Shown: positions 1-33,400 of the stretch, in pieces
Position numbering within the stretch: position 1 is the first letter of the stretch
How the letters are laid out: every line of letters begins with the position of its first letter
NCBI RefSeq assembly: GCF_000189635.1
Contig: NW_002476363.1
Coordinates: forward strand, 496,001-560,000
Length of the DNA: 64,000 nt
Reading direction: 5' to 3'
DNA from: Tetrahymena thermophila SB210
Taxonomy: Eukaryota; Ciliophora; Oligohymenophorea; Hymenostomatida; Tetrahymenidae
The notes under the pieces: generated by a model
What the model saw: only the letters and a program-made list of their open reading frames with translations
Database searches by the model: none
Told to the model about the DNA's origin: nothing
Program-made: the position numbers and the translations under genes

Positions 1-3000
1 GCTATGATTTTTTTTGTGATCTTTTTATGAATAGTTTATACTTCTATCACTCTTAAACCTATATTGTTCTTTTATCGATTTATTTGAGCTATCACTTTTA
101 AAAGACGATAAAGAAGTCTAGTTATCAGTTGTATATTAGTCTTCTTCTATATCTTACTCACAAATAGATTGCTAATTTAAGATGTCTTCATCAGTTGAAA
201 ATAGTATTTACATCTCAGGGCTCAGATCTCTAATATTTTCTTTAAGAAATTAGCAGGTTATTGTGTTAATTTTAATGAAGACTCTTTTAATATAAAAAAG
301 GGGATAAAATTAACAAAAAAATAGTTATTAATAAGGTTCTAAAAAATTTATCTTCTTTCTTTTTTGGTATTTTATAAAATTTATTATTTAGTAATCATAA
401 AAACCAAAATTATTTAGAAATTAAATATTTAAAAGTTTTTATATTCTTAAAATTAAAGAAGGAGGGGATAAATAAGGAACTTTCTTCATAAACAAAATAT
501 TATTTAAATTTTTCACAGTCCAAAAACTGTTTTTGCAGAAGAACATTATTTTTTCTCCCTCCTCCCGATTTTTAAAAATTAATTGACTTAAGTGATTTGA
601 AAAAAATTTAAACTCTGATTATTAAAAATAAATAAGTAAGTGGAAAATATATTGCAAAAAAAAAATTTCAAAAATAATAAACCTTGGATCATAATTATCA
701 TTTTAGGATCTTCTTTTATATTTTGCCTATCTTTCTTAAAATAAACTAAAATTATGCTTCAAAGCTATAAATTATGAATCAAATTTTTAATGCACGATTG
801 GGCAATTTTTGACCATATGACCCATACTTTTACAAGCATAACATTCTAAATACAAAATTGAATAATCTTGTAAGAATTTTATTTATTCTTCCATCATTTT
901 AAATCTCTCAAAATCTTCTTAATTTTCTTAAATTAGTTTGATAAAGCTATTTCTATTTATCCTGTAAAGAGTAGATAAATTAATGCTCCTTGCACTTGCG
1001 TTTCTAGATAAACCAGAAAAGAAAGAAATCTCACCAAAAATACTGTCTTTAGATAATACTTTTAAAGAATGAGTTTTCTATTTCTAATTAAAGCTATTTA
1101 AAATCAAATTCTAATGAGGTGTTTAATAAATTTCAATTTTTCCACTCTCTATAAAGTAAACTGATTGGTCAATGTAATCCCCTTCTTCAAATATAATTTC
1201 ATTTGGTGAAACAACTACTTCTTCCATAATAAATACTAACTTTCTAAGGGTTTGAGAAGAAAAGTTAGCACCAAAAATCGAATTGTTTTTCAGTATTCTT
1301 GAATTTGTCTCAACAATTATTTCATTTCTCAATTTATTTGATAAAATTTATAAAACTTGATTTTCAGATTATTAGTCTCTGTCTTTTTGTTCTTTAGCTA
1401 GGAAGTTGAGGTAGTGTCTAACTCTACTTTGTAATTATGCGTTCACATTTTTTCTATTCAAGTACCTAAAATATTTTAAACAATTATATAGATCAGATTT
1501 TTATCTTGCTAAATAACTCAAAACTATAAAATTATTATTTTAAATATTTTTAGTGTTAATAGATACCTTTAGATTATAATGATACTATCATTGAGCTCTT
1601 TAGAAGATTTTTCTATTTCTTAAAGTATAAATCCAATATTATTTATTGAATATGCAAATACACAACTAAATAGAATCATAGATATTGTTATAAAAAGCGC
1701 TTCTATATGATTGCTTGCAGATATGTCTCCATAACCAACTAAAATTTAAAAGAAGTCAGTATTATAAAAAATTAAGTTATATATATATACCTGTTGTCAT
1801 AGTAGTTACTGACCAATACATAGAATAAATGTATAATTATAAGTAAGTTAGCTCATTCAAGCTGTACTTTTAAATCCATGATTAAGAGAATCCATTTTAA
1901 ATTTCATATAAGCCTAACGAATACCATGCTAAACAAACTAAAATTTATATTATTAATAATAAATAATCTTAATTAATTTATTATTATCATTAATAATATA
2001 AATAAATTTTAAATCTTAGATAAAGTATATATTAAAGTGGGAAATTTTATACTAAATAAGCAACTATTTTTTTCTATTCCCTTAACTAAATAAAATAAAT
2101 TGAATCATTAATTTACCCAAGTGTGCGACAAAAATAACACTTAGCAATTAGTTTAGTAATTTCATTATATGTTTTTAATGATCTTTTAAGGTAAATGCGT
2201 AGCTAAATCGCTTTTTCTTTTAATTAACACATTTTAATTTTAAAAAAACTAACGAATTTATAATAAAAATGCTTAGGCTATAATCAGGGTTATAAACTAG
2301 ATGAGAGTTTTTTAAAATTAGCTTCGATCCCATAGTTATTAGAGATATAGCATCTGCCATGAAAATACTAGAAGACATATACTTCCAAGCTATTTATTTT
2401 CTATTTGATATAATAACATCCTTTTTAAAGTAAGCGGTGTTAAATGTAACAAGAGTATCAATGAAAAATAATATAAACGAATATAAATAGTATTGCTCTA
2501 TGATAGCAGTATCTTAATTCTACATAGCAAAGAAAATTTATATTGAGTAAATGTAGATAAATAAGTAGGTGTAAATAGTTTATAGAATATCCCAGTAAAC
2601 TCTAAAACTATTTGTTGGCATAAAAAGAGGTATTGGTATTTTCAGATCTGCAAAGCGATATAATTTATAAATGAATTTATTCAGTATATTATTTCTATTA
2701 ATTTTGTTAAAAGAAAATGCCTCATCGTTAATTATTTTATATTCATTTTCTTAGAGGGCTATTACTCTATTGTTTTTTCTATTCTTTAATATTTGAATGA
2801 AATTTTTTACATGCTTATTTATTCTTTAGACTCTGTTCATAGACTTATTTACAATGTTATTAATTATATTAGCAGCTTTTTCGTAATTTACTACATTTTA
2901 CTTCCCAATGCTAAACTTACTTCCTTCAATGTCAGATATGTTTTTTTATTGTTAATAAGATATAGTTTCTTTTTTTTTATTGATTAAGTTTAGTTCTACT

Positions 3001-3391
3001 TTCAAATTATTATCATTATGTTATTATAATCCAGAGTTTTAAATCTACTATTTTTTATTAATGATCTTTTTTTTAATCTCCTCTATATTGCTTATTACTT
3101 TAATATCATTTCCTTCATAAAAAACCTTATTTTTTGATTTGGAAAAGAAATCAGCTTGTTTATTTTGTTAAACCTCCTAAATGTCTACTTCTAAACTCTT
3201 TTAATTCTATAAAAAGTTTTTGAATTTTTTATGAATATAATAATAAAACTTTTTTAATTTACTTCACACTGAGAAGAGGAATTCTTTGTTTTCAGTACTT
3301 CTTGAGATTTTTACCTTCTTTCATCTATATCTGTGTTATAACAAGGTTAAGAAATATTAATTAAATCATCATCTCCTTACAAGCAATTCAT
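1..3391 (-). CDS. K+-channel-like protein with cyclic-nucleotide-binding domain and CCHC zinc knuckle (paralogue 1; 3' end outside window)
   Basis: Likely a plasma- or ciliary-membrane K+ channel gated by cyclic nucleotide. The start at 3391 (MNCLQGDDDL) is the first ATG of the open frame. An intron at 3207-3262 is followed by a charged N-terminus, then hydrophobic helices over about 2,650-1,600. The pore reads TTMTT-VGYGD, with a phase-1 intron (1739-1790) cutting the filter valine codon. A C-linker leads to the cyclic-nucleotide-binding domain at about 1,350-880. It has the fold's glycine-rich turn (EEGDYIDQS) and a phosphate-binding cassette, IFGEISFFSGLSRNASAR, that keeps the glutamate and arginine. 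A zinc knuckle, CYACKSMGHMVKNC, follows at 802-843. The frame stays open to base 1, ending in an Asp/Ser/Gln-rich tail, so the stop is outside the window. Introns in 270-750 are possible but unplaced. Family call is firm; ligand and ion selectivity are inferred. Confidence 0.85.
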
Positions 3392-4263
3392 TATGCTTTC
3401 ACAAAATAATTTTCCTTGCAAATTTTTGTTTTAAAACTCAATATTATCTGATATTGAATGTTATATGCTATAACTACTCATAATAAAGGTATAATTAGCT
3501 AAAATTAGGCTTTATATATTTGGCTAAATTGCTTTTTTTCTAACAAATTTCTCAAAGTCAATATATATCTAAAATTGGCTTTCTTTTTATTTTTTAATTA
3601 GAAGAATTGAATTGAATTGAATATCAAAAAATTACTATTTCTACTAATATTTTGAAACAAATTAAATATAAATTTTTTGTTATACACAGTTTAATAATAG
3701 GTAATAATTCATTTTATCTAGTTTGTTTTGTAGTTAAACTGAAAAATTCTATTTTTGTTATAATTTAACTCTAATAAAAAATCTTAATTTAGATGGTAAT
3801 AAATTTAATTTAGTATTTTATTATTTGAGTAAAATATATTTTTTATTTTTTAATTTATTTATACTTAAAATTAAATATTGTTGAATATTAAGGTTTAAAG
3901 AGAGATTAGAAATGTAAAAAACTTTGATCAATTTTTAAAAAATTTTTAATAAATTGAATTAATTATTTTTATAATGAATAAGTTAATAAATTAAAACAAT
4001 CATTTAATGATTGATATAAATGATTTATAATATTTTTAAAACTAAATACTGTAAATTATTGTTTATTATCGCCCTCTTTAATAAAGTGCAATTTTGAATA
4101 ACTTTAGAAAAAGTTTTTAAACAATATTTAGATTTCATATATTTTTTACTTTAAAAATTACCCAATTTTACCAGTAAATATTATATATATCATATATTTT
4201 ATCAAATAAAACAAATTATATATTTATAAACTTCTTAACTTAGTTTATACATTTATTTATTAT
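3392..4263. other. AT-rich intergenic, nothing recognised
   Basis: This 0.87 kb lies between the start of paralogue 1 and the stop of paralogue 2, both on the minus strand. It is almost pure A/T with poly-T and poly-A runs and shows no sustained coding-like frame, RNA gene or repeat. It should hold the promoter of paralogue 1 and the 3' end of paralogue 2, but no distinct motif stands out. Confidence 0.6.
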
Positions 4264-7200
4264 TCATAGTTTTTATCCTGTTTGTTGATATTGTTGTAAG
4301 AAAATTTTTGGGTACTTTTAGGAACTTTTAGTAGATATTCCATAAGAAATATTTGTATTATTGTTCATTTAGTAAACCTTAAATTAGTTTGCCATAGACT
4401 TGATATAAAATTATTTTTTTTACTTAAATTCATAACCTATTTAATGACTTTAATCTTTTTGTGTTTGATTTGAAAATATTAATTTTCTAATGTTATTATT
4501 TTAATGTTAGTTATAATCTTTTATTACAAATTTATAATTACTAAAAGGGAAATAATATTTAAATTATTTCATTTCATCAAAGTAATTAAGTAATATTTTT
4601 TGTTATTCTAAAGTAGAACTTTTGCTGACCAAATGTTTTGCTTTCTATCCATTACCATGTTTTTTATTTGATTTTAGAACTTATGATTATATGTTTCCAT
4701 TATAATAAGTTTCTTATTTATCATGCGAAGATAAGGTTCTTATAGAGTTTTAACTTATACTTTACTCTTTAAAATTACTGATTTATTCATCTTTACAAAA
4801 TTTTAGGATTTTAGTTTCTTATGATTTCCAATTAACACTTTTTTTTTCTTCAGGGAAGAGTTAGATATTTGCTAAACTTGATAGCTATTTATGATATTTT
4901 TATTCCTAAGGATAATTAGATTCTGCAATTAAATTTGCGGAGATGTTGATAGACTCTTGATCCAAATAATTTATAAAAGCTAGCGACTATTTAGATTAGT
5001 CTACTTAGATATTTTCTATAAAATTATTATGTTTTAAAATACTTGATTATTTTTTTCTAATCGAAACTGTATTTTTCTAAGTGAAGTTTTCATTTTTGCT
5101 GCCTAATTTTATATATTTTAATTTAATGCTTTGGTAATTTCAAAAAGAAAGTATTAATAAATACATGTATCTAAAGCAGAAATAGATTATTTTAGAGAGT
5201 AATCATCATACAGAGTACTTTATTAGTAAACGTCTAATTCTTTATCTTAAATATTTTCATCATGCTTAATATTGAAATCAATTCTCGTATTTTTATTAGA
5301 AAATTGTTAAATTAAACTTTTATTTGAGTTAGCAAAGTGTTAGTCTGATGACATTTATTTATTACTTACAGGAAATTCATCTAAATTACAAATTGACTGT
5401 TTATAGAGTGAGTTGAAATAGAATTCTTCTTCTTGTTCAAAGAAATTTCCTTAATGCTTTAATTCTTCTATTTTTTTGTTTGAAAAACCTTATTCACTAT
5501 CATTTATCTTCGAATTGAAAAAATTTTAATGCTTAGGCTCTGTTTTCATTTGATTAAATATTTTTTTGTTTTGACCTATCAAACATCTTTTGAATTATTA
5601 ACAGTTAGTTATTATTTTAAATTATTTAATAATAGAAAAATTTCATTTTTAATATGATAATTTATAAAATATTTTTGAATAAAAAATATAAATTATTTTT
5701 TAATTTTACTTTGCTTTAAAAAGCTTTGTCAAATGTCTTTTATTTAATTACTTCCTTTCCTAAAATTGACTAAAATTGTATTTTAACTTTATCAGTTAAT
5801 GGTCAAATTTTAAATTTAATAATGGGCATTTCTATATAATGTGGTTATTAGATTCACAAGCATAGCATCTCATTTTAATTTATTTATAGTCTTTATTCAG
5901 AGTAATTTTATGTTGTAAAGCTTTGAAAATTTCAAAATCAGTTTGATTTTGATGAATTACTTATATAAAATCTTTTCTTTCGATTTTACATAATGTTGAA
6001 AAGCATGTACTTCTAGCTGAAGCAGTTCTTGGTTATTCTGAAAAAAAAGCAATTTCACCGAAAATCTAATCAGTTGATAATGTTTTAAGGATAAAAGAGT
6101 GAGAATCTCTTTTAGTTTCTTTTAAAAATATCTCAATTTGGCCACTTAGAATTAAATAAATTGAATCATCAAGATCTCCTTCTTAAAAGATAGCTTCACC
6201 TGGAGAAACTGTTATTTCTTTCATCTAGAAAATAATTTTATTAATAGTTTATTGATGAAAGCAATTAAATATTTTAAATTTTTGTATAGTTTTGAGATTT
6301 GACTCCTTAATAACCTCTTATCTAAGATTAGGTGTTAAAAGAGAAAGTACTTCGTCAGTTTATTTTATTTATTTATTTTTTTCTTCTAATAAGGCACTAA
6401 GATAAGCTTATATTTGAATTTTAAGCTAAAAGCTAATGTTTTTTGTTTTCAAATATCTAATAAAAAACAAAAAAAACTTATGAATTTGTTTATTTTTCAA
6501 TAAAATCAATTTACTATTAAATGATTTAAACTTATTTGTTAAAATCTTGATGCTAAATGTAAATTTCATTAAAAATATGACCAATTTTATTTATATAGCG
6601 AACCAATAAAAAGCTAAAAATTATTGCAAATATTGATATGTATAAAGCTTCCACATAATTTGTAGGTGATATGTCTCCGCTCCCAACTGATAAAATAAAA
6701 AATTTTAAAATGTAAATTGTTTAATATTTATTAATTAAAAAAAGCAAATTATAAATTATTGATTGATTGATTGAAAATTACATTTAGAAATGTAAGGATA
6801 TAAATTGGTTGATTAAAAATTTACCAGTTGTTATTGTTAAAATTGCCCAGTAAAAAGAATAAATGTACTTAATATAATATTCGCTGTTCTCTATGTTGAT
6901 GCGCTAAAGCCAATTTTTTTCATGGTTTTAGATAAATGTTAAACAATAAAACCCTACGCATGCTTTTTTAAAAATATTTTTTATAATTTTTAATAAATAT
7001 ATGTAATTATTTTACATATATGAGCAATTTAAACAAAGCAAAAAATTTAGCTGAAAAATTAAAAAAAGTGCACTTAGAACTAACTTAAGGTTAATAAATT
7101 TTTTAATTTTTTGATTTTCAGCTTTAATCCATATATTTTTGCAAATATAAAGATTATTTAAGTATATTTTAGCAAACTTCTTTAAGGATTATAAGTAATT

Positions 7201-9105: not shown

Positions 9106-12100
9106 TCATTTTTTATTGGTTTTAGGTATAATTCGGAGCTAATTCATTTCAATTGACCTTTACCCATTAGACTATGATGGACTGTTTTATTAATTTGACT
9201 AGTCTTTATTATTTTTATCATTCTAAATTTTTTATTTTTATGAATTGACCTTAATTTAATTTGTTGCAAACAAGTTGAAAATTTATTCAATAGAAGCTTG
9301 CTTTACTGAATAATTTTCAACCAACAACTGATTTTTATTGTTTTCGAAAACTTCAAACATTCTACCAATAGATATGTCAGACTAAATTCTAAATCTGTAG
9401 AAATCATCAAAATGTTCAATAATACTATATTCACCTAATTTTTTTTCTATAAATGTTTTTAGGTTTTCTCCATTTTATTCTAATATCACATATTGTGCTA
9501 GAGATAATAAGCTTACTCCGTAATCAGAAGTCAATCTAGCGTACAATTATTTACCATTACCTTAATCATTGATTTACTCATAGAGATTGAAAGCATTCAT
9601 TTTTTAAAGATATTATTCAAGCTAACCATAGTGAATTTATTCTTTAACTTAAGCTTAGGAAATCCCGTATGAACTAAGTTTCTGAATAAGCTCTTATTCT
9701 GTAGGTATTTTTAATTTGATTTCAACCTCATAACCTTCACCAAATTTATCCTTAATTTATTATATACTTCCAATGCACTTCAAAATACCTTCTACTTAAA
9801 TAGCAACTCTTGTTGAGAGAGCTTCAGCTTCTTCCATTGAATGGGTTGTTAATATTACACTTGAACTTTTACGTTTAGTAGATATTCTTGAAATAACATC
9901 CCACATAAAACGTCTAGCTGCAGGATCCATTCCTGTAGAAGGCTCGTCAAGAAAAACAATAGGAGGATTACCTAACATAGCTATAGCTACGCTTAGCTTA
10001 CGTTTGTTACCTCCACTATAAGTACCTGCTAGCTTATGTTCGAATTCTGTCAAATCCATTTCTTTGATTTTTTTAGCAACTAATTTTTCTCTCATTTCTA
10101 TAGGAATTCCTTTAATTAATGCATACATTTCTAAATGTTCTCTTGCTGTTAAATTATCACACAAGGCATCGAATTATGGACAATAGCCAATATAATTACG
10201 TGCTTGATTAATTTGAGTTTATAAATCATATCCCATAATGTGGCATTCTCCTGAAGTTTGTTAAATTTCACCTGATAAAATTTTAAATGTTGTAGTTTTT
10301 CCTGCACCATTTACTCCCAAAAGAGTGAAGCATTCGCCATTTCCAATACCAAATGATACCTAATCAACAGCTACTTTGATTCTGTCTTTTGCTGGAATAA
10401 AAACTTTTCTTAGTTTGTTAACTCTAACAGTATAATCTGAAGGATCGGTTTGATTGATAATATCAATTTCTTTCTAAACATCTTCATCATATTCTTTTGG
10501 TTCATACTTAACTTATTTTTCTTTTGAAAACATGTTACTTAGGAAAGAAATTTGGTTGTAATTTTCAACTATAAACACTAATAAGTAGTAAATAATTCCT
10601 TCTATTATCATAAAAATAATATCTGCGCCAGCAATATCAATAGAGAAAGGTGAATCAAGTTCCTTTTAGTTATTTTACAAGGCATATAAATTTCTATTGC
10701 CTATGTTCATTATACCATAACCAAAGCTGAAGGAAGGAACTATTCTAAGTATCCATCCTAAAGCTTTTCCTGCTGATTTAGTTGAATCTATAATTCTGAG
10801 AATGAAAATTACCATAGGCATGATACCACCAAATAAGAAGTTTATAAAGAAAGCTGAAACTTATGCATTGCCATAGTCGCCAAAAACAAAACCAATGAAA
10901 TATGAGAAGGGTATAATTGACCATCCATAGAGGAACATCATAAAAGATACAGCTCCGAAGCAGGAACCATCAGTGAAAGAGGATATATCATAAGCAAGAA
11001 TCATTAGAATAGAAAATACTGCAGGGACAATATGCTTTATAAAATCAACAAAGTAATTACTGAACCAATATGTGTATAAACTGACTCCGCTTACTAATTA
11101 TTAATGCTTAATTTTTTCAGTACGCTCTTTTACTATAAACGAGATAAGGGAAGCAGGAATAAATGAAAAAGCTATAGCATATATAAAACTAGCCACAAGA
11201 CCTTATGCTGTACCAGAGAGGTTTTTTAATGTATATGTTAAAGGTAATGGTTAATTAGTAATCTATAGAGTGATTGATGGTTTTCCTAATTTAGAAAGTT
11301 TATAATTAATATATGCTTCATTCATCTAGTTTATATATAAGGGAGCTGCGTCTCTATAAATTGTGTTAACTTCTGTTGTATATTTAAATATATTTGATGA
11401 ATCAATGTCTTCAATATAGTAAGAACCTGTTACACTATCAGTTTTTGCTTTGTAAGCCGATTACTCCCATTAACTAGCTTATAAATCATATTATTCATTA
11501 AAATTATACAAGCCTTTCTTATTAAATGAGCTAAATAGAGCATCAATACTTGAATGAGGTAAACCAGGTGAATTACTAGAAACTACTTTGAGTGGTTAGG
11601 GGAAATTGATAGGATCTATTATAATAGTGTCTTGTTCTTTGATAAAAGTTATTAAAGTTAAACTTAATCCTACAACAACAATCAAGCATGGTAAAATAAC
11701 CTCACATAAAAGTGATCTTATATCTCTTTTAAATGATATTATTCTCTTAACAATTAAAGCTCTCATATGATATTAAAATTTTTGATAAGTTTTTGTTACT
11801 CTTACTTGATTTAAATCGAAATTATCGACTTCATCTATACAATTTTCTTCAGATCCATTTCTGCTTTAACCCTATTAGTTCTCAATATCTCCATTAACAT
11901 CTTATGAATTAGGAATATTTAAGTAGATTTTGCTGTTTTTTTAATGATCAGCTTACTATTACTTCTTTTTCTATTCCTTTATTTTTTCTTCTTTTAAATG
12001 GGCAACTTTTAAGAAAACTTCTTCTAAAGTAGTAATTGAAATACCATATGTTTAGATACTTAACTATTAAAATGAGTTGTCAAGTTCTAAGAAAAGTGCA

Positions 12101-14622
12101 GGGAATTTTGGAGCATGCTCATTTTAAAGTTAGAAAACAACCTCAGCTGATACATCTGATAAAATAACAGCAGTATTGATATGTTTCTTAACTAAATTTA
12201 TAATTGGTTATGAGTCGTCTGTAGGATTCTTCTTTACAACTGTTAAATTATAACCAGTTCCAAATTTATTCTTTAAGAAAAGAGGTTTTCCCAAACAAAC
12301 AAGTTATCCATCTGCCATTATTCCTATTCTATCTCCAAGATAATCTGCTTCATCCATAAAATGTGTAGTCAAGCAAATAATTCTGTCGTTCTTATACCTT
12401 TTAAGCATATCCCAAATATGTCTACGAGCAGATGTATCCATACCACTAGTTGGCTCATCTAAATAGACTAATTTGCTACCTCCGATAAAGGCTATTGCAA
12501 CACTAAGTCTTCTTCTTTACCCACCAGAGAGATTTTTTGCAAGTTCATTAGTTTTTTCTTACAAATCAACATCTTCAATGTGTTTTTGTACTTATTTTTG
12601 TATTTCTTGATTATCTGTCATACCTTTAAAAGATGCAAATAGCTCTAAATGTTCTTTAACTGATAAGTTATCAAATAAAATGTCATATTGAGGACAAACT
12701 CCCATAAAAGTACGAATTTCTTGCATTTCAGATTCAACATCTCTTCCCAAAGCAGTAGCAGCACCATCAGTCATTTCATACATACCAGTAAGCATAGATA
12801 TTGTTGAAGTTTTACCAGCGCCATTATGTCCTAACAACGCAAATATTTAGCCATTGTACATAGAAAAGCTCAAACCATTAACTGCACTCTTTCCTGAAGG
12901 ATAAATTTTCCTTAAATTTGTTATTTTTACTGCTTAGTTAAGTTCTTCTTGGTCTTTTAGGTTTTATGGAACATCTTCGAAATTATCATTGAAGTCAAAC
13001 TGTTATTCACCCTTTGCATTTTCTAAAAGTTTTCTTTTCTTTTCTTCAGGAGTCAATTTTTTTTCCCAAATCCAACTAATAAAGAATAGAGGATGACGCT
13101 TTTTTCCAAAATCATTAGGAAATACTTAGTCAAAGTATAAGGCAAGAATAATAAAGATAATGATATTTATGATATCCATAATCATATTAATAGCTACAGA
13201 GTAGTTGACAATTTCGTCAGTTAAATTTGACCACTAAATTCCTTTCTTTGAGCTTTCTGAAATTAGGAAGACATCACAACCCAAAACTGTACCTGCTTAA
13301 GGCAAGATTGAAATTCCAACTTTAGTAGATTTTGTAGGATTATCATCGCTACTTAGAATCATATTAGCCATATACTAAAATAAGAAGAAAACCATAGCAA
13401 ATATATTTCCTACTTGAGCCTTAGTAAAAAAGGTAGTGATAAAAAGACTTTAGAAAATCAGAGAAATTCCAAATAGCAAATGCCAGATAAAGATAACACT
13501 CCAGTCAGATGAAACATAAATAGAAGCCTTTAGAGCACTGGCAACAAGAATACTACACATGATATAGATGATTAAATAGTAAATAATCCATGAAGCATAG
13601 AAACTAGAATCACTCATTCCCATAACTTTCATGCCTTCTCTAATTTTCTTTTCTTTCTCGATAAGAAGTCCATATGTCATTCTTAAATAAACCAAAATCA
13701 TTGGTAAAACAATGAAGACTCCCATATTGCCTTTTAAACTTTCTACCAAAGGATTTTTATAGTGATCGTCAACAAGCATTGAAGTAATGCTGGCTTAAAT
13801 TTGCTAAGTGGTATCTTATGTGGTGTACTATAAAATCTAGTTATCTGTGTATTATCATATTAAAATAAAATTATATTTTGCAAAAATGAAATTTAAAAAA
13901 ATTAATAAATAGAACAATATTTACCTATCCAGTTTTAAATGGTAAGAAATCCGCTATCAACCCAAGGATCAAGTTGATTTTTTTTATCTTCAAAAAGATA
14001 CTTAATGACATCAGGTTTAATAGTTTGTGGTATCTCAGGATCATTTGCAGTAGAAGCATTGAAAAAAAGACGATATTTAAAAATATTATTTTAGAACGAA
14101 TCTATAGCAATACCTAAACAAATATCATTATTATAGTCTTTAGAAGAAGCGTAAGAAGTCATATCTTCAACGGAGGTGTATCTTTTAGTTTAGTAGTTAT
14201 AGTTTTATTTGAAAATATTCTCTAAAGGCTTAAGTAAATCATCTGGACCTATAGTGGCAATGTATCCATTTCTATAAGATGGATATTTAGATGAACTTCC
14301 AGTGAGACAATCTTTCATATGAGGAGGAATAGGGGCTCCATTTTTAGGATTAGTTCCTAAAGATTAGTAGTTTGGAGGTAAAACAGTTTTCTAATTTTTA
14401 ATTAAAAAATTTTAAATATTTGTCTTTAATTCTTTTTAAATTTACTTCAGGATAAAATGACTTCATAGGAATAAAATCATCATCAACCTAGCCTCTAAGA
14501 ACAACGAAAATCAAAACTAAGAGAAAAGGAAGCAGTATTTCGAAAATAGAGCAACACATATTCCTTTTCCAAAGAATATAGTTTTTCTTCATTAAAGCCT
14601 TTAAATGCTTACTGAATTTCAT
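9106..14622 (-). CDS. ABC transporter, ABCA type, full length
   Basis: A two-half ATP-driven transporter of the ABCA subfamily, whose members usually move lipids or sterols across or within membranes. Two introns (14391-14445 and 13845-13924) give exactly 1,794 codons including the stop, a normal ABCA size. Order: N-terminal helix (about residues 16-36), a large non-cytosolic loop, helices from about 250 to 480, then NBD1 with Walker A GHNGAGKT (553-560), signature LSGGQRRR and Walker [10 protein letters not shown] linker rich in Lys/Gln/Asn follows, then the second membrane domain (about 850-1290) and NBD2 with Walker A GVNGAGKT (1391-1398), signature YSGGNKRK and Walker B IVFLDEPS. All catalytic motifs are intact in both halves. 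The frame ends in a polar Gln/Asn/Lys tail at TGA 9106-9108. Substrate cannot be told from sequence. It stands alone between channel paralogues, with no sign of co-regulation. Confidence 0.95.
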
Positions 14623-18961: not shown

Positions 18962-19464
18962 ATTCTTTGTTATATTTTAAAAAGATTTATATTTTTTATT
19001 CTAAAAATCTTAATTATTTTTAAAAAAATGCTATCCAAAATAAAAAAAACCAAAAAAGCAATAAATATTTATATATCTCATTTTTATTTTTGCATAGAGT
19101 TATTTTTAAAATTATAATGTTAATTTTTTGAAAAAGAATATATGAAACTTTAAACATATTTATGCCTTTAAAATTAAAATATAAATTAATGAATAAGCAT
19201 TAAAAAAATTATTTTAATTTTAAAAAAATTTCCAAATACATAAAAATTATGATTTTTAATTAGATGATATAAAAAATGAAAGAATAAACATTTAAATATA
19301 ATAAAAATATTTACAAATTATTTATTAAAAGATTGTAGGATTCTACTAATATTTTAGTTGATATTCTATATAATAAATTAATAAGATCTTATTTTTATGG
19401 ATTTCTGCCATCTGTTTAAGTTAATTTCATTAAACATTTTTATTTTTTGTTATATTCATTCAAT
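18962..19464. other. Intergenic with a possible relic of a channel C-tail
   Basis: AT-rich DNA downstream of channel paralogue 3. At about 19,340-19,380 the minus strand reads LLYRISTKILVES, which resembles the last conserved tail segment of the other paralogues (CYGISTKS). The gene's own TGA lies upstream of it, so this looks like former coding sequence left outside the present frame, or an exon I could not connect. Confidence 0.4.
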
Positions 19465-22400
19465 TCAACAAAATTTTTAATTTTTGAAAATAAAAATTTT
19501 TCTTGTGTTAATGCTTTACTTTAAATTGTAATATTTGATAACTAAATTTGAGTTATTATAAGTGAAATAGTATTTGTAATCTTTCATTTTATCAAAATTG
19601 TATAAAAATAGTTTTTAAGCTGTTTAAATTGATTATGTCTTATATATTGTTGAAAATTGATGATAATCTCCATCTTAAGCTATCTAAAATTTTTAAATCT
19701 ACTATCTTCTAACTATAGAAGTGGTTTTTTCTTTATTTCCATTTGAAGAATGAGTCAAAATTGATTATTAACTTTAAGAAGATAATTCATTCATTAGATC
19801 ACTTTATAATTCATCTTTAATCAGTTTCAATTTTTTATTTTCTTAAATTTTGGAATTAGTGGTTTTCTTTTTTTTATCTTCAGGATAAAGTTATAAAGTA
19901 ACAACGCTTGGTAAATATTTATGATACTTTTAATCCTAGGTGTAATGAGATTCTGAAATGAGATTTGCAGATAGGTTGATTGATTCCTACTCAATTTAGT
20001 TATTAGAGCAGGATTGAATTTTATCAACTTAAATATTATCAATGTAATTACTGTGCTTCAAAATAGTAGATTTTTTTTTCCTTTTGCGGATAGAGATTTT
20101 AGTATTTGAGGAGACTCCATCATTTTTATTACCTATAAATTTATTAAGTTTGAAAATTAATTTTTACTTAAATATTTATATTAATATTACAAACATCGCC
20201 TTAAGAATTAAAGTTGCTAAATGACATTTCTTCTTATGTAATACCACCTATTTAAGCATCATATTGCTTTTCTATTTAATTTTCATCATTGACCATGCTT
20301 TTTTATGCTTAATCAATAGAAACTATGTTAGCTATATTTTGTATTTAGTTTTTACTAGAATTAATAAACTATTAATCTATTTGAATCTATCTTTTGCTAA
20401 GCGATACCTATTCAAAATTACTTACAGAATAATTAAATTCATTTAACTAATTAAGATATTATTAACTGTTTTCATTTAGACATCCTTACTACTTTGCTTC
20501 TTCTATTTAAATATTTGAAAAACCTTAATTACTCTATTATTAAGCTGAATTAAAATAGCTCTGGTATTATAAATCCATTTTTAACTGGCTTTAGATTTTT
20601 AAGTTTGATTCAACTAAGTTTCTTTTTAAAAATAAAATATTAATTTCAAATATTATTTTAATATTAGAGTGGATGTATTAAAATAATTTAATTGAGTTAT
20701 TATTAAAAAAATAATTTTGTTTTTTATATTTCAAATGAATTAAATGAAATTATTTAAATTACTTAGCCTTAAAAATTTTGGAATTTTTTCTTTTATATTG
20801 ACTTCTTTCTTAAAATTTACGATAACAACTTTTTAAGTTTATCAGCTAATTGTCAAAATAGGAATTTATAATTGGACATTTCTAGATTATGTGATAGGGA
20901 GAGTTGCAAGAATAGCATTTAGTTTATATTTATCTGAAATTTTAATTCAATAAAATGTTATGCTAAATTGTTTTAAAAATTTCAAAATCTCTTTGGTTTC
21001 CTTAAATTATTTCAATAAAATCTTTTCTTTCAATTTTATAAAGCATAGATAATTTAATACACTTGGCTGTAGCTGTTCTTGGCATTTAAGAAAAAAATGC
21101 TAATTCACCAAATATTTAGTTTTCTGATAATGTTTTTAGTTGAAATGATAAACAGTTTTTATGTGCAGTATTTCGCAAAATCTCAATTTATCCACTATTT
21201 ATCAAATAAATTGAATCATCTATATCTCCTTCTGAGAATATGACTTCTCCAGGAGATAATATGATTTCTTTCATAAAGAAAACAAGTTTATTGATTGATT
21301 ATTGAGAAAAACAATTAAAGATGTTAAATTTTTTTAGTATTTAAAAATTTGCTTCCTAAATAATTTCTTCTCTTAGTTTAGGGGATAGAAAAGAAAGTAC
21401 TTATTCTTCTTCTTCTAGTATTTTGCTATTAATTTCCTCTTCCTTAAAGTGTAAATACTAAATAGCACGGGCTTTAAGTTGTATGTTGACATTTTTTCTT
21501 TTTAAATATCTAAATAGAAATTATTTTATTTTTATATTTATTTTATATATTTACTTCTCAATGACTTTTGTTTTGTCTTTAATATTTTGATATGAAATTT
21601 AAAAATTATGGAGTATTTATCCTATATTATTTATCGAGAAGATAAATACGCAACTAAAGATGATTGTGTTGATAGATATGTATAAGGCTTCGCTATAGTT
21701 TGTAGCTACAATGTCTCCATACCCAACTATTTATAAGTATAATAAATAAATAATTGCGAAAATGTTTTTTTTAATTAATAAATTACTAGTTGTTATTGTA
21801 TTTATTGCCCAGTAAAAAGAATAAATGTACTTAATATAATAAGCACTATTCTCTATATTTATATGCTAAAGCCAATTTTTTTCTTAACTTTAAAAAACAG
21901 TTAATAAATACCATCCTATGCATGCTTTATAAAAAAAAAATAAAATTCATTTTTGAAAAATATTTTTAAATTTTTTACAAATATGGGCTATTGCAAATAT
22001 AAAAATAATGTGACTGAGCAATTCGTAAACTCTCTTTTAGCCTTAGCTAAGCATAATAATGTTTTATAGTCTATTAATTTTTTATTTCACACTATAAAGC
22101 TTAATGAATATGGTTAAAATCAACACATATTTAAATATACTATTTTCAGGGTTATAAGTAATTTAATTGGGCTTATAATTAATCTCCATATACAAAATAG
22201 CTAGGCTTATAAAATCTGCCAAAAAATGAAAGCTTAATAGGTAAGATTTTATTATGAAACTCCTATTTAGTATGATATCATCACTTCTAAATATAGCTTA
22301 ATTTAAAGCTTAAAGTATATCTAAACCCATTATTGATATGGCTACAATGCAATAAATAGTAAACTAAGTAGAATTTTAATCATTTTGGTTAAAGAATGCT

Positions 22401-24363: not shown

Positions 24364-27300
24364 TCAAATATTTTTATCAAAAACTTTGGGGTTCTTGCTA
24401 CAAGATTTTGTTGATATTCCATAGCAAATCTTATTTTTTTGTTATTTCTTCAAAAATAAATATCTTGATCTAGGAGAAAGTCTAAATTTTAGTTTGTCAT
24501 TTTCGCTATAATGATTAGAAGAACTTATTCTTGAAAAAAGCAATTTAAAATTTATATTTAATAATGCATTATACTCTTTTATAATTAAGTTGTAATTATT
24601 TTATGGTAAAAAGTATTTGTAATTTTTTGCTAAATCAAAATCATATTAAAACAATTTTTAAAGGACTTCAACCGATAATCTATTACCTGATATTGTGTAT
24701 TATTGATCTCCATCTAGCGTTTTACATGCTTTTTAAATTAAAGTTTTCTTTCCCAAAGATGTAGTTTTTTCTCTTTTACCATTTGAAGAAGTAGTCATCC
24801 CTGATAATTGGCTTTAATAAGATTAATCATTCTTATCATTTTATAAGTCATCCTTACAAAATTTAATTATCTTATTTTCTTGAGCTTTGGAACTATTAAT
24901 TTTATTTTTTTTATCCTCTGGATAAAGTTATAAAGTAGCATTGATTGGTAAATATTTATAATACTTTTAATCTTATGAGTAAACAAATTCTGTAATTAGA
25001 TTTGATGATAAATTGATCGATTCCTATTCAAATTGATTAGTAGAACAAGGTTGAATTTTATCAACTTAAATGCTATCTGTGCAATTGGAATGTTTTAAAA
25101 TAATAGAATCTTTTTTCCTTTTATGATTAGATGTTTTTGTATTAGATGAGATGCCATCATTTTTATTACCTTTAAAATATTAAGTTTGATATGTTAATTT
25201 CAATCTTTAATTTTTATATTAAATTACAAATGTCGCCTAAAGAATTAACGTGGCTCAATGATAATTCTTCCTATCCAAGTCCTTATTAAAGATCTTACTC
25301 TTTTTCAAATTAAACGCCTTCGTTAAGAGTATTATTTCTTGAACTTATACCTAATAAAACTATATTAGCTATGTTTTGAGCTTAATTTTTAGTAGGATTA
25401 ATATACTATTAATCAATTTAAATTAATTTTTTGCTATAAGCAACTTATTCGCAGATGTTTGCTTAGCTATTATAATCATTTTGCTGATTTAAATTTTACT
25501 AACTATTTTAGTTAATAGACCCCTTTATTTTTGATTCCTCCATTTAAATATTTGATGTAAATTACTAACTTAAAACAGGTTCAGAATTAAAAAAATTCTA
25601 GTATTCTAAATTCATTTTTAACTAGCTTAGTATTTCTACATTTAGACCTTCTAAATTTCTTTTTTATTTAAGATTAATTAAAATATTTATCTTCTTTAAT
25701 AAAAATATTTATACAGATATTTTACTCTGAATATTTTCCATTATAAATTTTAGTTTATATTTTTATAGATAAAAAAAATTAAAAAAAACTCAAGGATACC
25801 CAAAGTAAAATATCTGTTTTTCAAAACTTCAAATTCAAAGTAGAACTAAGAATTAAGAAATAAACGAACAAATAAATATATTTAATTTTAATGAGTTTTT
25901 TATAAATTACTTTGCTTAGAATACTCTTACATTTTTTCTATTGAACTTCTTCCTCTCTTATTAGGTGTGATAATTATTTTTTAAATTTATTAACTAATAA
26001 TCAAAAGCTTAATTGACAATTGGGCATTTTTAGATTATATGGTTGCTAGAATTGCAAGAATAGCATTTAGTTTATATTTATTTGAAATCATGATTGAGTA
26101 AAATTTAATGTTAAATTGATTTAAAAACTTCAAAATCCATTTGATTTTGTTAAATGATTTCAATAAAATCTTTTCTTTCTATTTTGTAAAGTGTGGATAA
26201 ATTTAAACTCTTTGCAGTTGCTGTTCTTGGCATTTAAGAAAAAAATGCTATCTCACCAAATATTTAATTTTCTGATAATGTTTTCAGTATGAAATTTGAA
26301 CAGCTTTTTGATGTAGTGTTTTGCAAAATCTAAATTTTTCCTTTAGTTATCAAATAAATTGAATCATCTATATCTCCTTCTGAGAATATGATTTCTCCAG
26401 GAGAAACTATTATTTCTTTCATTTAGAAAACTAGTTTATTAATTGATTGTTGAGAAAAACTATTGAAAATATTAAATTTTTTAAGTATTTAAGAATTTGC
26501 TTCCTAAATGATTTCCTCTCTAAGTTTAAGAGATAAAACAGAGACAACTTATTCTTCTTCTTTCAATAATTTGCTATTAATTTCTTCTTCTAAAAAAAAA
26601 AGATATTAAATAACACGAGTTTTCAGTTATATGTTGACATTCTTTCTTTTGAGATATCTATTTAAAAATTATTTTATTTTTTATTATTTTTAAAAAATTT
26701 ACTTTTCAATAATTTAGGTTTAGTTTTTAATATTTTAATTTGACATCTAAACTTCATGGAGTATTTAACCTATGTTATTAATTGAAAAAGCAAAAACGCA
26801 GCTAAAAATGATTGTGTTGATAGATATGTATAAGGCTTCACTATAGTTTGTTGCAACAATATCTCCGTAGCCAACTATATATTTATTATATTGCAAAATT
26901 AATTAATTAATTGAGCTTATAAAAATTTAAATAAAAATTAAGGTTTTAAAAGAGTTAATTAATTTATTTCTTGAATTCTACCTGTTGACATTGTAATAAT
27001 TGCCCAGTAAAAAGAGTAAATATACTTTATATGGTAAGCGCTGTTCTCTAAATTAATTTTTTAAAGCCAATTTCTTTCATTTTCTAGAATAAATGTTAAA
27101 GAGTACCATCCTATGCAGGCTTTTAAAAAATTATTTTAAATATTTCTAATAAAAAGTAAAGATATATATATATTTACATATGTGTGCTATTTAAAGGACA
27201 CTAAAAATTTAGCTAATTAACTAATATAAATGCTTTTAATTTTAACTGAGTGTCATCACATTTTTAATTCTTTATATTTTTTGCTTCACACCAAAGAGCT

Positions 27301-28560
27301 TTACAAATATGATAACAATTTACATATATTTCCAAAAATTATTTTCAGGATTGAAAGTAATTTAATTAGGGCTAGAAACTATCAAAGAAAATAGCGCTAT
27401 AAGACTAACAAAATCTGTTAAGAAATGAAAACTTAGCAAATATGATTTAATTATGAATTCTCTTTCTAAAACTATGATATCCCATTTAAATATAGCCATG
27501 TTGAAGGACTCAAGTATATCTAGAAGCATTATGACTACACTTAAAAGACAAGTAAAAGCGAATTAGTTTGAATTTAATTCAGCTTAGTTGAAGAAAGCAA
27601 ATATTGAAAAGAAAAAAAAGAACAAGTAGAAATAAATAATGCCTAATAAATCAAAAAGAATTATTATCTTGTTAGTAGGAATCAAAATAGGGATATGTTA
27701 AATTAATTGCTAAGTTTTTTTTAACAAATTAAAAAAAATAGAGTTATTCTATGGTGAATCCTTTTCAAAATAGTAGCAACTATCTGAAATAATTTCAATT
27801 TAAAATTTAGATATGTTATCTAATTTTCTGTTTTTGTATAAAAGCTTCATCTTTTTTATAAACTCTAAAACTTTTAGCCTTACATTTACCATGGTATATA
27901 ATTAGTTTGCCTTTTTAATTTTTTGTTAGTTAGATTAGATATGATTGATATGTTAAGAGCTTTTCTTATCTTTCTATCTGTTGCTTATTTAAAATACTAA
28001 TGAATTTCGATGAAGATTTTATTTTTAATGCTCGTCATGTTTAGAATGTATTCTATTTCTTGAGGTTAAGCAGTTATGAACTTGTATTTCGTTTTGACTG
28101 TTCAAACTTTATTATTTCTAATCTTCGACTCTTTTTTTTTAATGTTCACCATATAATTGTTTTTCTTTTTTAAAAACAAAGCTAAAGTTAAAATTAAAGT
28201 TATTTGAATAAAATATTTACCATTATCTTTGATATTAAAGATGAAAATATTATTTTACTTGCTACAGTTAGTGTTAAATTGAAAGAATTAGGTTTTTTCT
28301 ATATCATTTACGTTGTTATTATCTGTTTACACTTTTTATTTTATTTTCGAGTTTGCATTTTGAATAATATCTTCAAAGCTACTGATAGCTTTAAGACCTG
28401 AATCTCCTTGCAATCCCTATTTGATTTACTCACACCTATCATCTATAATATATTTTTAGCAAGGTCTTTCAAATATACTATCATTTTATTGTTCTTTTTT
28501 TGCTAAGAATTCGGATTCAGTGTTATTTTCAATTATTGTACTTAATTTATTAAGATCCAT
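24364..28560 (-). CDS. Channel with cyclic-nucleotide-binding domain and CCHC knuckle (paralogue 4)
   Basis: The start at 28560 opens MDLNKLSTIIENNTESEF, and TGA 24364-24366 follows NPKVFDKNI. Order: polar N-terminus with YIIDDRCEQIKQGLQGDS; helices at about 27,750-26,780, including LGIIYFYLFFFFFSIFAF and LTDFVSLIALFSLIV; an S5-like segment running into ACIGWYSL; and the pore WAIITMST-VGYGD split by the intron at 26875-26981. The cyclic-nucleotide-binding domain follows, with SEGDIDDSIYLI and SQMPRTATA-type cassette residues, then the CCHC knuckle CYSCNSSNHIIQKC at 26024-26065. The long C-tail contains SINLSSNLITEFVYSQDQKY and ends CYGISTKSC. The S4 region (VKLFGVKQKIQRIKNV) has scattered positive charges rather than a clean every-third pattern, so voltage dependence may be weak. 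Near twin of paralogue 5. Probable cyclic-nucleotide-gated K+ channel. Confidence 0.87.
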
Positions 28561-29224
28561 TTATTAAAAGCTTCAATGAATGTATGTTAATCTTTTTTTC
28601 TAATCTTTTTAATTGTAATAAATTATTGCTTTACTTTAATTAACTTTTATAATTTTATATAAAATTAATATTAAACATAAGCTTTTAAAAAAATTATTGC
28701 CTTTTTGTGATATACTAAATAATTAATAATAAACAATAAATCCCTCACTAAAAAAGAAATTAATTTGTTTGAAAGTATCTCCATTTTAAAGATTGTATTG
28801 AAATCAAAGCAAGACTAATCAAATAATAGGATTTTCTCATCATCAAAAAATATTGCTCTATTAGATTTTATTTTATTTCTTTTTTTGATATGTAAATTTA
28901 TTTATATTTTAATTTGTTTTACTTCTATAACACAAATTATTAATAAAGCTTTTTTACCAATTTCAATATTAACTATTAACTTATTTTTTTCTAGTACTTA
29001 TAAATGACGGAATTAAAACTAATTATAAGATTAATCTTTTAATATATGGTTAATCAGAAACAAAAAAGAAAAATAATTATTAAACATGTTTGTTTTAATT
29101 AAATTAATTTTTTTAATAAGAAAATAGTTTGCATAAAAATAAAATAAACAAATAATTTAACATAAAAATGAAACATTATAAACAAATTAATATTATTTAT
29201 TTTATATATTAGATAAATTATGTC
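28561..29224. other. AT-rich 5' flank of channel paralogue 4
   Basis: About 0.66 kb without a gene, homologous to 34,663-35,418 upstream of paralogue 5. The similarity stops abruptly at about 29,225, where the Pmp-gene fragment begins. It presumably carries the promoter of paralogue 4; no motif stands out. Confidence 0.6.
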
Positions 29225-29510
29225 TTTCTCACTATTAAGGTTCAGCAGGAGCTCTGCTATTAAATTATTGTGATATTTAAAGTGTGGTTAAAAATATTTT
29301 CAATTAAAATACTGATCTAATATGAGGTGCTTTTTGATACCAAGGAAATTTGCTTTAGTTTTTAAAAAAATAAAATTAATTTAAAGTTAAAAACCTAAAA
29401 TTTAAATAAGAACTGAGTCTGATTATATAGAAGAAATAATACTCCCTATCCTATTTTTATGTTATAAAAAGTTAATATAAAGATCTTAAAAAGATTTCAA
29501 TTAATTCACA
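29225..29510 (+). pseudogene. Decayed fragment of the large Pmp-repeat surface-protein gene
   Basis: About 285 bases align by eye with the last Pmp-like repeats and the following segment of the large genes (near 44,200-44,470 and 55,740-56,010). Shared landmarks are GSAGAL.LN.CDI, matching GSGGALQLNNCDI, a GGAF-like turn, and a later stretch matching the QLYGKDIGSYPVLLDVKNQ region. Several in-frame TGA codons and small indels show it is no longer coding, and it has no ATG or signal peptide of its own. It sits exactly between the two channel duplication units on the opposite strand to the channels. It is a relic of a third copy that once lay here, or a piece carried in when the duplication formed. 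Confidence 0.75.
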
Positions 29511-30452
29511 TATAATATTCACCTAAAAAAAATACAAAGAATAGCTATAGATTTTTTCACAATTATATTATCTTTAGCAAGCCTTAGCTCTAAGCTAGAA
29601 ATTAAAAAAAATTTGTGGGTCAAAAGCAACAAAATAATAATTTTTTTAAAAATTAGACTTTTAAAGCTTATCCTTAGATGCTATATTAACTTTAAAATAA
29701 AAAGTCCTTTTTGCTTATTTATTTTTAAATATAAAATATGTTATTCATAAAGTGAATTCAAATTAAAATAATATTAATACTTTTTATAAATTTGTTTAGT
29801 TGTTCATATGAATTATTTGTATGATTGGTTGATAATTACTTTTTAATATTAATTAATAGATTGATATGAGATATAAAATATCAAAATCAATCAATTAATT
29901 AGGGAATTTAAGAGAATAATCTCAAACAACTAATAAAAACTAAATATATTTGTGAATTATTAATTAGATCTATTTTTTTAGACATCAAATTTTTAAATAA
30001 TAAAAGTTCGTTAAAGCAAAATTTTAATTAATTAAAAGAGTTTCCAGTAAAATTTTGTTAATTATAACTATGCTTGATCTATTTGTCTTTAAAAAAGAAC
30101 ATTTTAATAAATAGAAAGAACTTGGGGAAGTTTTTTAAATCAACATAAATTTTAAAATAAATGATAATTAAATATAAATTAGCCATTTTAAATGCGTATT
30201 CTTATCTAAAATTGTATTTAAAAAAATGTGAATTTCCTTAAAATAAACATTAAAGAAAAAGAAAGAAATTCAATTATTTTTCAAAATTTATAAAAAAATA
30301 ATAATTCATAAACATAGATCTAATTTTCAATAAAATAAGCAATAGAATGAATATATTCAATTAAAACTTAGAAATTAATTTTTATATGATATGTTTTATA
30401 AGTGAAAAAAAATAAATAAATAGATTTAAAATAATTTTTTAATTATGTTATT
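29511..30452. other. AT-rich 3' flank of channel paralogue 5
   Basis: About 0.94 kb without a gene, closely matching 23,460-24,363. The stretch near 30,000-30,160 is preserved best. Frameshifting single-base differences between copies argue against a coding function. Confidence 0.6.
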
Positions 30453-33400
30453 TCAAATATTTTTATCAAAAACTTTGGGGTTCTTGTTACAAGATTTTGT
30501 TGATACTCCATAGCAAATCTTATTTTTTTGTTATTTCTTCATAAATATATATCTTGATCTAGGAGAGAGTCTAGGTTTTAGCTTATCATTATCGTTCTAC
30601 TACTTTGAAGTTTATGTTCCTGAAAAAAATAATTTAAAATTTATATTTTATAGTGCGTTATACTCCTTTATAACTAAGTTGTAATTATTAAATGGTAAAA
30701 AGTATTTGTAATTTTTTGCTAAGTCAAAATCATATTAAAACAATTTTTATAGTGCTACAATCGATTGTCTATTACCTAACATTGTCTATTATTAATCTCC
30801 ATCATGCGTTTTTAATACTTTTTATAATTAAGATTTTCTACCCAAAGATGTAGTTTTTTCTCTTTTACCATTTGAAGAAGTAGTCATCATTGATAATTGG
30901 CTTTACTAAGATTATTCATTCTTTAAATCATTTTATAACTCATCTTTACATAGTTTAATTATCTTATTTTCTTGAGTTTTGGAGCTGATTATTTTATTTT
31001 TTTTATCCTCTGGATAAAGTTATAAAGAAGCATAGCTTGGTAAATATTTATGAAACTTTTAATCCTGTGAATAATGAGATTCTGTAATTAGATTTGCGGA
31101 CAAATTGATTGATTCCTATTCAAATTAATTAGTAGAACAAGATTGAATTTTATCAACTTAAATGTTATCTATGTAATTATAATTCTTTAAAATAGTCGAT
31201 TTTTTTTTACTTTTATGAATAGATATTTTTGAATTAGATGAGATACCATCATTTTTATTACCTTTAAAGTTATTAAGTTAGATATGTTAATTTTAATCTT
31301 TAAATTTTATATAAATTACAAATGTCGCCTAAAGAATGAAAGTGGCTAAATGATACTTCATCCTATCCAAGTCCTTATTAAAAATCTTACTCTTTTTCAA
31401 ATTAAATGCCTTCATTAATGGTATTGTTTCTTAAACTTAAATCTCCTAAAACTTTATTAGCTACGTTTTGAGATTGATTTTTAGTAGGATTAATATACTA
31501 TTAATCTATTTAAATTAAGTTTTTACTCTTTGTAACTTATTCACAATTATTTAATGTGTTATTAAAATCATTTAGTTAATTAAAATATAACTAACTATTT
31601 TCGTTAATACATCCATGTAGTTTTGATTCTTCCATTTAAATATTTGATGCAAATTACTAACTTAATTCAAGTTCAGAATTAAAAAAATTCTAGTATTCTA
31701 AATCCATTTTTAACTAATTTTGTATTTATATATTTAGACCTGCTAAATTTCTTTTTTATTTAAGAATAATTTAAGTTTTCATAAATTATAAAATTTATAC
31801 AGATATTTTACTCGAATATTTCCTTTAAAAATTTTAGTTTATATCTACCGTAATTAATTTTTATTGATAAAAAAATTTAAAAAAATCAGGGTTACCCAAA
31901 GTAAAATATCTGCTTTCAAAACTTCAAAATAACAAAATAAGAATTAAGAAATAAATGAACAAATATAATTAATTTTAATGAATTATATAAATTACTTTGC
32001 TTAGTATATTCTTATATTTTGTCTATTGAATTTCTGTCTCACTTATTATGTGTGATAATTATTTTTTAAGTTTATTAACTAGCAATCAAAAGCTTAATGG
32101 ACAATCGGGCATTTTTAGATTATATGATTGCTAGAATTGCAAGAATAGCATTTAGTTTATATTTATTTGAAATCATAATTGAGTAAAATTTAATGTTAAA
32201 TTGATTTAAAAACTTCAAAATCCATTTGATTTTGTTAAACTATTTCAATAAAATCTTTTCTTTCTATTTTGTAAAGTGTGGATAAATTTAAACTCTTTGC
32301 AGTTGCTGTTCTTGGCATTTAAGAAAAAAATGCTATCTCACCAAATATTTAATTTTCTGATAATGTTTTCAGTTGGAATATTGAACAACTTTTTTATGCA
32401 GTATTTTACAAAATCTAAATTTATCCGCTAGTTATCAAATAAATTGAATCATCTCTATCTCCTTCTGAGAATATGACTTCTCCAGGAGAAACTATTATTT
32501 CTTTCATTTAGAAAACTAGTTTATTGATTGATTGTTGAGAAAAACAATTAAAAATATTAAATTTTTTAAGTATTTAAGAATTTGCTTCCTAAATGATTTC
32601 CTCTCTAAGTTTAAGAGATAAAATAGAGAGAACTTATTCTTCTTCTTTTAATAATTTACTATTTATTTCTTCTTCTAAAAAAAAAAGATATTAAATAACA
32701 CGAGTTTTAAGTTATATGTTGACATTCTTTCTTTTGAGATATCTAATTAAAAATAATTTTATTTTTTATTATTTTTAAAAAATTTACTTTTCAATAACTT
32801 AAGTTTGGTTTTTAATATTCTAATGTGACATCTAAATATCATGGAGGATTTATCCTATGTTATTAATTGAAAAAGCAAATACACAGCTAAAAATGATTGT
32901 GTTGATAGATATGTATAAGGCTTCACTATAGTTTGTTGCAACAATGTCTCCGTAGCCAACTATATATTTATGTTACAAAATAAATTAATTGAGCTTATAA
33001 AAAATTTAAATAAAAATTAAGGTTGTAAAAGACGTAATTAATTTATTTCTTAAATTCTACCTGTTGACATTGTAATAATTGCCCAGTAAAATGAGTAAAT
33101 ATACTTTATATGGTAAGCGCTGTTCTCTAAATTAATTTTTTAAAGCCAATTTCTTTCATTTTCTTGAATAAATGTTAATGAATACCACCCTATACATGCT
33201 TTTTTAAAAATTATTTTAAATATTTCTAATAAAAAGTAAAGATATATATATTTACATATGTGAGCTATTTAAAGGACACTAAAAATTTAGCTAACTAATT
33301 TATAGAAATGCTTTTAATTTTAACTGAGCGTAATGACATTTTTAATTCTTTATATTTTTTGCTTCACACCATAGAGCTTTACAAATACAATAACAATTTA

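Follow-up and report, generated by a model that had tools for sequence, protein, structure and literature searches.

Relation to described channels and zinc knuckles

In CNG and HCN channels, the C-helix of the cyclic-nucleotide-binding domain (CNBD) closes on the bound cyclic nucleotide. The five channel-like gene copies in the stretch of Tetrahymena thermophila DNA analysed here (64,000 bases, the window) resemble such channels and carry, behind the CNBD, a CCHC zinc knuckle. Copy 4 is similar in sequence to SthK, 5V4S (which we take to be LliK), CNGA1/CNGA3, TAX-4, HCN and SKOR/GORK from the pore filter or the C-linker through the CNBD, its residues 67-310 aligning with SthK and 67-317 with 5V4S. 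For copy 1 the SthK alignment spans residues 41-225, covering the C-linker and CNBD. The C-linker between pore and CNBD is present in both copies examined by alignment to SthK (1 and 4). Among the 60 of 169 matches listed for copy 4 and the 33 listed for copy 1, the knuckle is aligned by 7W5Z only, whereas the other CNBD channels end before it. Chain C of 7W5Z, named "Cyclic nucleotide-binding domain protein", has the filter, CNBD and knuckle as in the Tetrahymena family, and shares a stretch of 121 identical residues with the gene at C422:130794, which marks the genome as that of T. thermophila or a very close relative; it is a sequence deposited as part of an entry for mitochondrial complex IV.

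The channel knuckle has the C-x2-C-x4-H-x4-C spacing, the aromatic residue, the proline and the segment match in common with the knuckles of LIN28, AIR2, retroviral nucleocapsid and CNBP-like proteins, but it is single, is located behind the channel C-helix and has glycine after the second cysteine in just 4 of 76 homologues. No paper describing a zinc knuckle or CCHC motif in a CNBD channel was recognised among the titles listed from the open-access literature, in agreement with the initial annotation, which knew of no well-described cation channel with a knuckle at this place. Passages on Plasmodium domains (PMC3090354) and on Euplotes (PMC8670190) have no bearing on CNBD-knuckle channels.

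The CNBD-knuckle module in the window

The knuckle motif, scanned on both strands as TGY-N6-TGY-N12-CAY-N12-TGY, has exactly five matches in the window, all on the minus strand, against a chance expectation of 0.00 (mean of 100 dinucleotide shuffles), and a chance origin is thereby ruled out. Translated with table 6 (TAA/TAG = Gln), the knuckles read CYACKSMGHMVKNC in copy 1 (802..843), CYACESNNHIIQKC in copy 2 (5826..5867), CYSCNSPYHIIQKC in copy 3 (20876..20917) and CYSCNSSNHIIQKC in both copy 4 (26024..26065) and copy 5 (32109..32150). The initial annotation had placed all five, with their CX2CX4HX4C spacing, correctly to the base, and the peptides that it quoted are reproduced with this table. 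Each knuckle is followed by a tail whose limits were taken from alignments and match ends: 706..801 on the minus strand in copy 1, with the consensus CP..H..FD.Q.I.LK....FQER, and about 5706-5825, 20747-20875, 25904-26023 and 31983-32108 in copies 2-5.

Upstream of the knuckle and in the same open frame, every window copy has a cNMP_binding domain (PF00027) scoring 59.7-70.6 bits against a Pfam cut-off of 27.5. These domains are located on the minus strand at 922..1218 (copy 1; G000:C174:496922-497218), 5946..6212 (copy 2), 21002..21259 (copy 3), 26144..26407 (copy 4) and 32229..32492 (copy 5). NCBIfam profiles gave CNBD-type matches only, all below cut-off. Further upstream on the same strand, a G-x-G-D pore filter is present in all five copies; it reads VGYGD in copies 1 (1725..1739), 3 (21713..21727), 4 (26861..26875) and 5 (32946..32960), and VGSGD instead in copy 2 (6673..6687). 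Pfam Ion_trans was not found in the window exons given, where hydrophobic stretches are visible.

A very large family

About 244 places in the genome align over the same CNBD-knuckle module, far more than the five of the initial annotation; 76 of these were read, and 113 are supported by a single search only. Homologues were collected by homology to a CNBD-knuckle query and not by the motif, although the search is biased towards knuckle-bearing matches because the query included the knuckle. All four ligands are present in 76 of the 77 homologues at hand, and the remaining one ends before the knuckle exon. That the knuckles are unrelated or derive from a mobile element is ruled out for the places read, since the CNBD-knuckle query retrieved all 77 of them and aligns with each.

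Starting from the CNBD, the module is found downstream of 100 of the 150 matches listed, with none seen for the other 50. Starting from Ion_trans, it lies 0.7-1.8 kb downstream of 32 of the 139 matches in the genome and is absent within 3 kb of the other 107. Among 56 loci with upstream DNA, the pore filter is VGYGD in 42 and VGSGD in one, and none was seen by a simple scan in 13. The phosphate-contact position of the CNBD cassette is arginine in 56 of 56, and in the Gly-Glu pair preceding it the glycine is kept in 56 and the glutamate in 48. Since the residue after this arginine is variable (K in 16, Q in 15 and T in 13 of 56), binding of a cyclic nucleotide is not certain.

On sequence grounds, the knuckle-bearing channel-like genes constitute a very large potassium-channel-like family in one ciliate. 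For comparison, 396 predicted genes of the voltage-gated ion channel superfamily are reported for T. thermophila (PMC3341644), and the CNBD is reported as one of the seven main domains in genes specific to single Tetrahymena species (PMC6564038).

Zinc-knuckle identity and ligand conservation

With the Pfam zf-CCHC profile (PF00098, cut-off 20.8), copy 1 alone scores over the cut-off (23.1 bits); copies 4 and 5 are below it (14.1 and 14.2 bits), and the profile is absent for copies 2 and 3 among the matches listed. Genome-wide, 20 zf-CCHC matches are over the cut-off, 7 of them in one multi-knuckle gene and 11 in the CNBD-knuckle family. Searched by itself, the 31-residue segment hits zinc knuckles of known structure, with whole-sequence E-values of 4.1e-4 for LIN28, 1.2e-3 for AIR2 and 1.4e-3 for HIV NC; the top individual stretch in the LIN28 alignment reaches an i-E of only 0.054. 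An aromatic residue follows the first cysteine in 58 of 76 homologues and a proline the last cysteine in 63.

The Cys/Cys/His/Cys ligand columns are invariant in all 76 homologues that reach the knuckle. Of the 83 columns in which 70 or more of the 76 sequences are represented, just five are invariant, and four of these five are the ligands (hypergeometric 2.7e-6). On a tree of 56 genes the ligand columns took 0 steps and the other knuckle positions 4-27, against a mean of 11.7 for 255 columns; because 14 of the 255 columns took 0 steps, conservation of the ligands is on a level with that of the CNBD core and is not unique to them. In the 76 homologues, the non-ligand knuckle positions vary more than the flanks do. 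The comparison of ligands with their surroundings that the initial annotation had proposed as a refuting test, run here on paralogues of one genome, does not refute the knuckle. An arginine in the tail is conserved in 97%. Identification of the segment as a zinc knuckle, already made in the initial annotation, is well supported by the spacing, the one Pfam match in five copies, the matches to solved knuckles and the invariant ligands, and the knuckle very likely binds zinc.

Linker and predicted structure

The knuckle is held at a nearly constant distance from the CNBD. From an invariant aspartate to the first cysteine there are 23 residues in 75 of 76 homologues and 24 in one, and the estimated distance from the CNBD end to the module, for the 100 of 150 CNBD matches listed, has a median of 121.5 bp with a 5-95% range of 117-129 bp. 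A linker of fixed length where the C-helix ends speaks more for a role in structure or gating than for a loosely tethered RNA binder, although fixed spacing alone is no proof of an effect on gating.

AlphaFold, run twice on the five window sequences, gave one moderate and one poor model. Confidence in the knuckle is low: the better model has a pLDDT of about 63-64 there and the second < 50, and the predicted tail helix has a pLDDT of about 46-60. For the C-terminal part of the better model, the fold matches are CNG, HCN and SthK channels, with a TM of about 0.43-0.49 (query) and an rmsd of 10-21 A; 7W5Z is absent from the 50 fold matches listed of 1287.

Possible function of the knuckle

The analysis establishes the module, its invariance among paralogues, its fixed spacing and the size of the family; from these observations we infer zinc occupancy, structural coupling and an effect on gating. 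Each gene would encode a CNBD potassium channel subunit in which the CCHC knuckle follows the C-helix at a fixed distance and is itself followed by a conserved tail, predicted to be helical. One zinc ion would most likely fold the 14-residue loop. Because its register with the C-helix is constant, the knuckle is most likely a small rigid joint, which may fasten the C-helix end to the tail helix and may present a surface to an adjacent subunit or a partner protein, and which would thereby tune gating or the assembly of the tetramer. We judge it somewhat probable that the knuckle of these CNBD K+ channels, folded by zinc and kept in register with the C-helix, serves as a structural joint or docking surface. 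The fixed-register knuckle, present in all family members whose sequence was followed to this point, is a concrete and mutable handle on what these channels sense, and the ciliate is genetically manipulable.

A metal or redox sensor, in which zinc occupancy or oxidation of the three cysteines tracks the state of the cell and gates the channel directly together with the cyclic nucleotide, is a doubtful alternative. The placement of the knuckle where the C-helix ends, behind a linker of constant length, and the ligands invariant in 76 of 76 are in its favour, but strict invariance suits a structural site equally well, and CCHC knuckles are usually tight structural sites, which counts against a sensor. 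It is similarly doubtful that the knuckle is a second gating input by which up to ~244 channel genes of one ciliate would respond jointly to cyclic nucleotide and to zinc or redox state through a C-helix joint folded by metal; no such channel regulation is known to us elsewhere.

That the knuckle and tail merely recruit a partner, for example a ciliary or cortical protein, as a docking or trafficking tag that leaves gating unaffected, is unlikely. One module across a very large family, with non-ligand residues as widely variable as partner-specific surfaces would be and a conserved tail, is consistent with such a tag, but a tag would have no need for the fixed 23-residue spacing.

Binding of RNA or DNA at the membrane, by analogy with nucleocapsid or LIN28 knuckles, appears quite improbable. 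The best solved matches of the segment besides 7W5Z are RNA-binding or RNA-processing proteins, and the frequent aromatic residue after the first cysteine (58/76) points the same way. Against this, RNA-binding knuckles typically have glycine both after the second cysteine and before the histidine, which is the case here in only 4 and 34 of 76, respectively, and the channel has a lone knuckle whose register relative to a gating helix is fixed. Net charge, with a mean of +0.54 for the knuckle versus -0.29 in the seven-knuckle CNBP-like gene, does not discriminate as a test of RNA binding.

A metal-free site, in which the conserved cysteines and histidine serve the fold or a disulfide, would be in keeping with zf-CCHC exceeding its cut-off in one of five copies and with zinc itself being predicted, but is hardly credible given the exact knuckle spacing with four ligands in 76 of 76, the match to solved zinc knuckles and the cytosolic location of the CNBD side of such channels, where disulfides are unlikely.

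Selection and the local array

Among the five window copies dN/dS is 0.20-0.38, the values for pairs with copy 1 or 2 being rough because dS exceeds 1.2 in every such pair; relaxed pseudogene copies in the window are ruled out by this range. Three further members of the same array are located just outside the window, at C174:479875, 484672 and 490709, and the motif is present in all three.

The knuckle and its ligands

The initial annotation placed a C-x2-C-x4-H-x4-C zinc knuckle behind the cyclic-nucleotide-binding domain (CNBD) of five channel paralogues. Searched with a degenerate codon pattern, the 64-kb window yields this motif five times, always on the minus strand and at exactly the positions claimed (802-843, 5826-5867, 20876-20917, 26024-26065 and 32109-32150; copies 1 to 5), with a chance expectation of 0.00 from 100 dinucleotide shuffles of the window. 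When the frames are translated with the ciliate code (table 6), a Pfam cNMP_binding domain lies upstream of each knuckle within an open frame, as had been proposed. The pore filter upstream of the CNBD is followed by an S6-like segment and reads VGYGD in copies 1, 3, 4 and 5, as in 42 of the 56 loci with upstream DNA, and VGSGD in copy 2 (window 6673-6687), where selectivity or conduction may be altered. The dN/dS between the five copies is 0.20-0.38, and dS exceeds 1.2 in pairs with copy 1 or 2.

Conservation was assessed in 77 of the 149 places found by a genome search with the copy 3 protein, all paralogues of one genome. The motif is in frame in 76; the sequence of the lone exception stops inside the CNBD part, and the motif is present in another exon of the same locus. 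In the 76-sequence alignment the four ligands (three Cys and one His) are invariant and the residues between them variable, with a mean entropy of 2.53 bits at non-ligand knuckle positions compared with 1.97 bits for the 30 residues that precede the knuckle and 2.17 bits for the 30 that follow it. Only five of the 83 well-covered columns are invariant, namely the ligands and one Asp. This Asp stands 23 residues ahead of the first Cys in 75 of the 76 sequences, and the remaining one has a spacing of 24. The comparison of ligand and neighbour substitution, made among paralogues, did not refute the annotation: on a 56-gene tree built with the knuckle left out, ligand columns take 0 steps and other knuckle positions 4-27. 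Since 14 of 255 columns take 0 steps, the conservation of the ligands is on a par with that of the CNBD core. The phosphate Arg of the CNBD is invariant (56/56) and is followed by a variable residue.

Pfam zf-CCHC matches copy 1 over the cut-off and copies 4 and 5 below it, with no match listed for copies 2 and 3. A 31-residue segment of the copy 1 knuckle, excluding the CNBD, matches solved structures of LIN28 (E 4.1e-4), AIR2 (1.2e-3), HIV-1 nucleocapsid (1.4e-3) and TUT7 (2.1e-3), these being whole-sequence values; the best single stretch of LIN28 has an i-E of 0.054. Genome-wide there are 20 zf-CCHC matches. Seven (L009-L015) are knuckles within a single frame of one CNBP-like gene at C356:22272-22775, and 11 of the 13 others fall within the CNBD-knuckle channel family; for the loci L017 and L022 no match was found with the CNBD-knuckle profile.

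Family size and domain context

The copy 3 search and two knuckle-segment searches (139 and 125 places) merge, over knuckle-spanning alignments, into 244 distinct places on 86 contigs, a count biased low because only the best candidates were scored and possibly high owing to E values near the 1e-3 limit. One search alone supports 113 places, two support 106 and all three 25; 76 were read at sequence level, and 145 have a same-strand neighbour within 12 kb.

For 100 of the 150 PF00027 (CNBD) hits listed, the module lies downstream at a distance of no more than 600 bp (estimated median 121.5 bp), an undercount because at least one of the 50 placed without it, C198:329928, carries a zf-CCHC match 150 bp downstream. 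These 50 include closely paired CNBDs, which we take to be cyclic-nucleotide-dependent kinases or regulatory subunits. At G000:C428:270680-323753, CNBDs paired at a spacing of about 2.2-2.6 kb have no knuckle module found and are perhaps such kinases. The module lies 0.7-1.8 kb downstream of 32 of 139 Ion_trans hits and not of the other 107.

The expansions of channels and CNBDs are already known, since the sections consulted report that T. thermophila has 396 genes for channels of the voltage-gated type (PMC3341644) and the CNBD as one of seven main domains in species-specific Tetrahymena genes (PMC6564038). The knuckle is without mention in the consulted sections of these two papers and of PMC8670190, PMC10060162 and PMC3090354, and no description of a CNBD channel with a zinc knuckle was recognised among the titles and abstract openings of the open-access literature searched.

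Structure and possible function

With copy 4 first, an AlphaFold2 model from the five window sequences has a mean pLDDT of 69.3 (knuckle blocks 63 and 64), with a C-helix at 180-196, short strands flanking the knuckle (203-204, 214-215) and a long helix starting at 220 (pLDDT 46-60); with copy 1 first, the mean is 53.8 and the knuckle is below 50. The 50 Foldseek matches listed are all CNG, HCN or SthK-type channels or their C-terminal domains (TM 0.43-0.49, rmsd 10-21 Å). Alignments to some CNGA/CNGB chains span 247-266 columns and may extend into the post-C-helix coiled coil of those chains.

The filter, C-linker, CNBD with phosphate Arg, fixed linker, knuckle and conserved tail together indicate CNBD potassium channels whose C-helix carries a joint that is probably folded by zinc. 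The predicted joint would transmit or tune gating, or aid assembly. Metal or redox sensing by the knuckle is possible. RNA binding is less likely, as only 4 of 76 sequences have a Gly behind the second Cys and the Asp-to-Cys spacing is fixed.

Neighbouring genes and a structure entry

Among PDB sequences the top match is chain C of 7W5Z, labelled 'Cyclic nucleotide-binding domain protein', which shares an identical stretch of 121 residues with a gene of the same assembly at C422:130794. The assembly is therefore probably that of T. thermophila or of a very close relative. This channel gene (L043, C422:130794-131531) is contained in the chain's 1471-residue sequence, in a mitochondrial complex IV entry. 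A figure legend on the T. thermophila dimer describes 7W5Z as an amphipol-embedded complex IV dimer, and the same source, in the part consulted, has COX3b encoded in mitochondria (PMC10060162), so the chain C label may be a matter of sequence assignment. A gene model that is fused or wrong may underlie it.

Inside the channel array, window 9109-13854 holds a gene for an ABC transporter of the ABCA type, in which ABC_tran and ABC2_membrane_3 are each recognised in two stretches, along with R1_ABCA1. At 58685-63492, one open frame has a PAS match below the cut-off and the next a response-regulator receiver domain over the cut-off with a HATPase_c match below it; these matches in adjacent frames suggest a hybrid histidine kinase gene.
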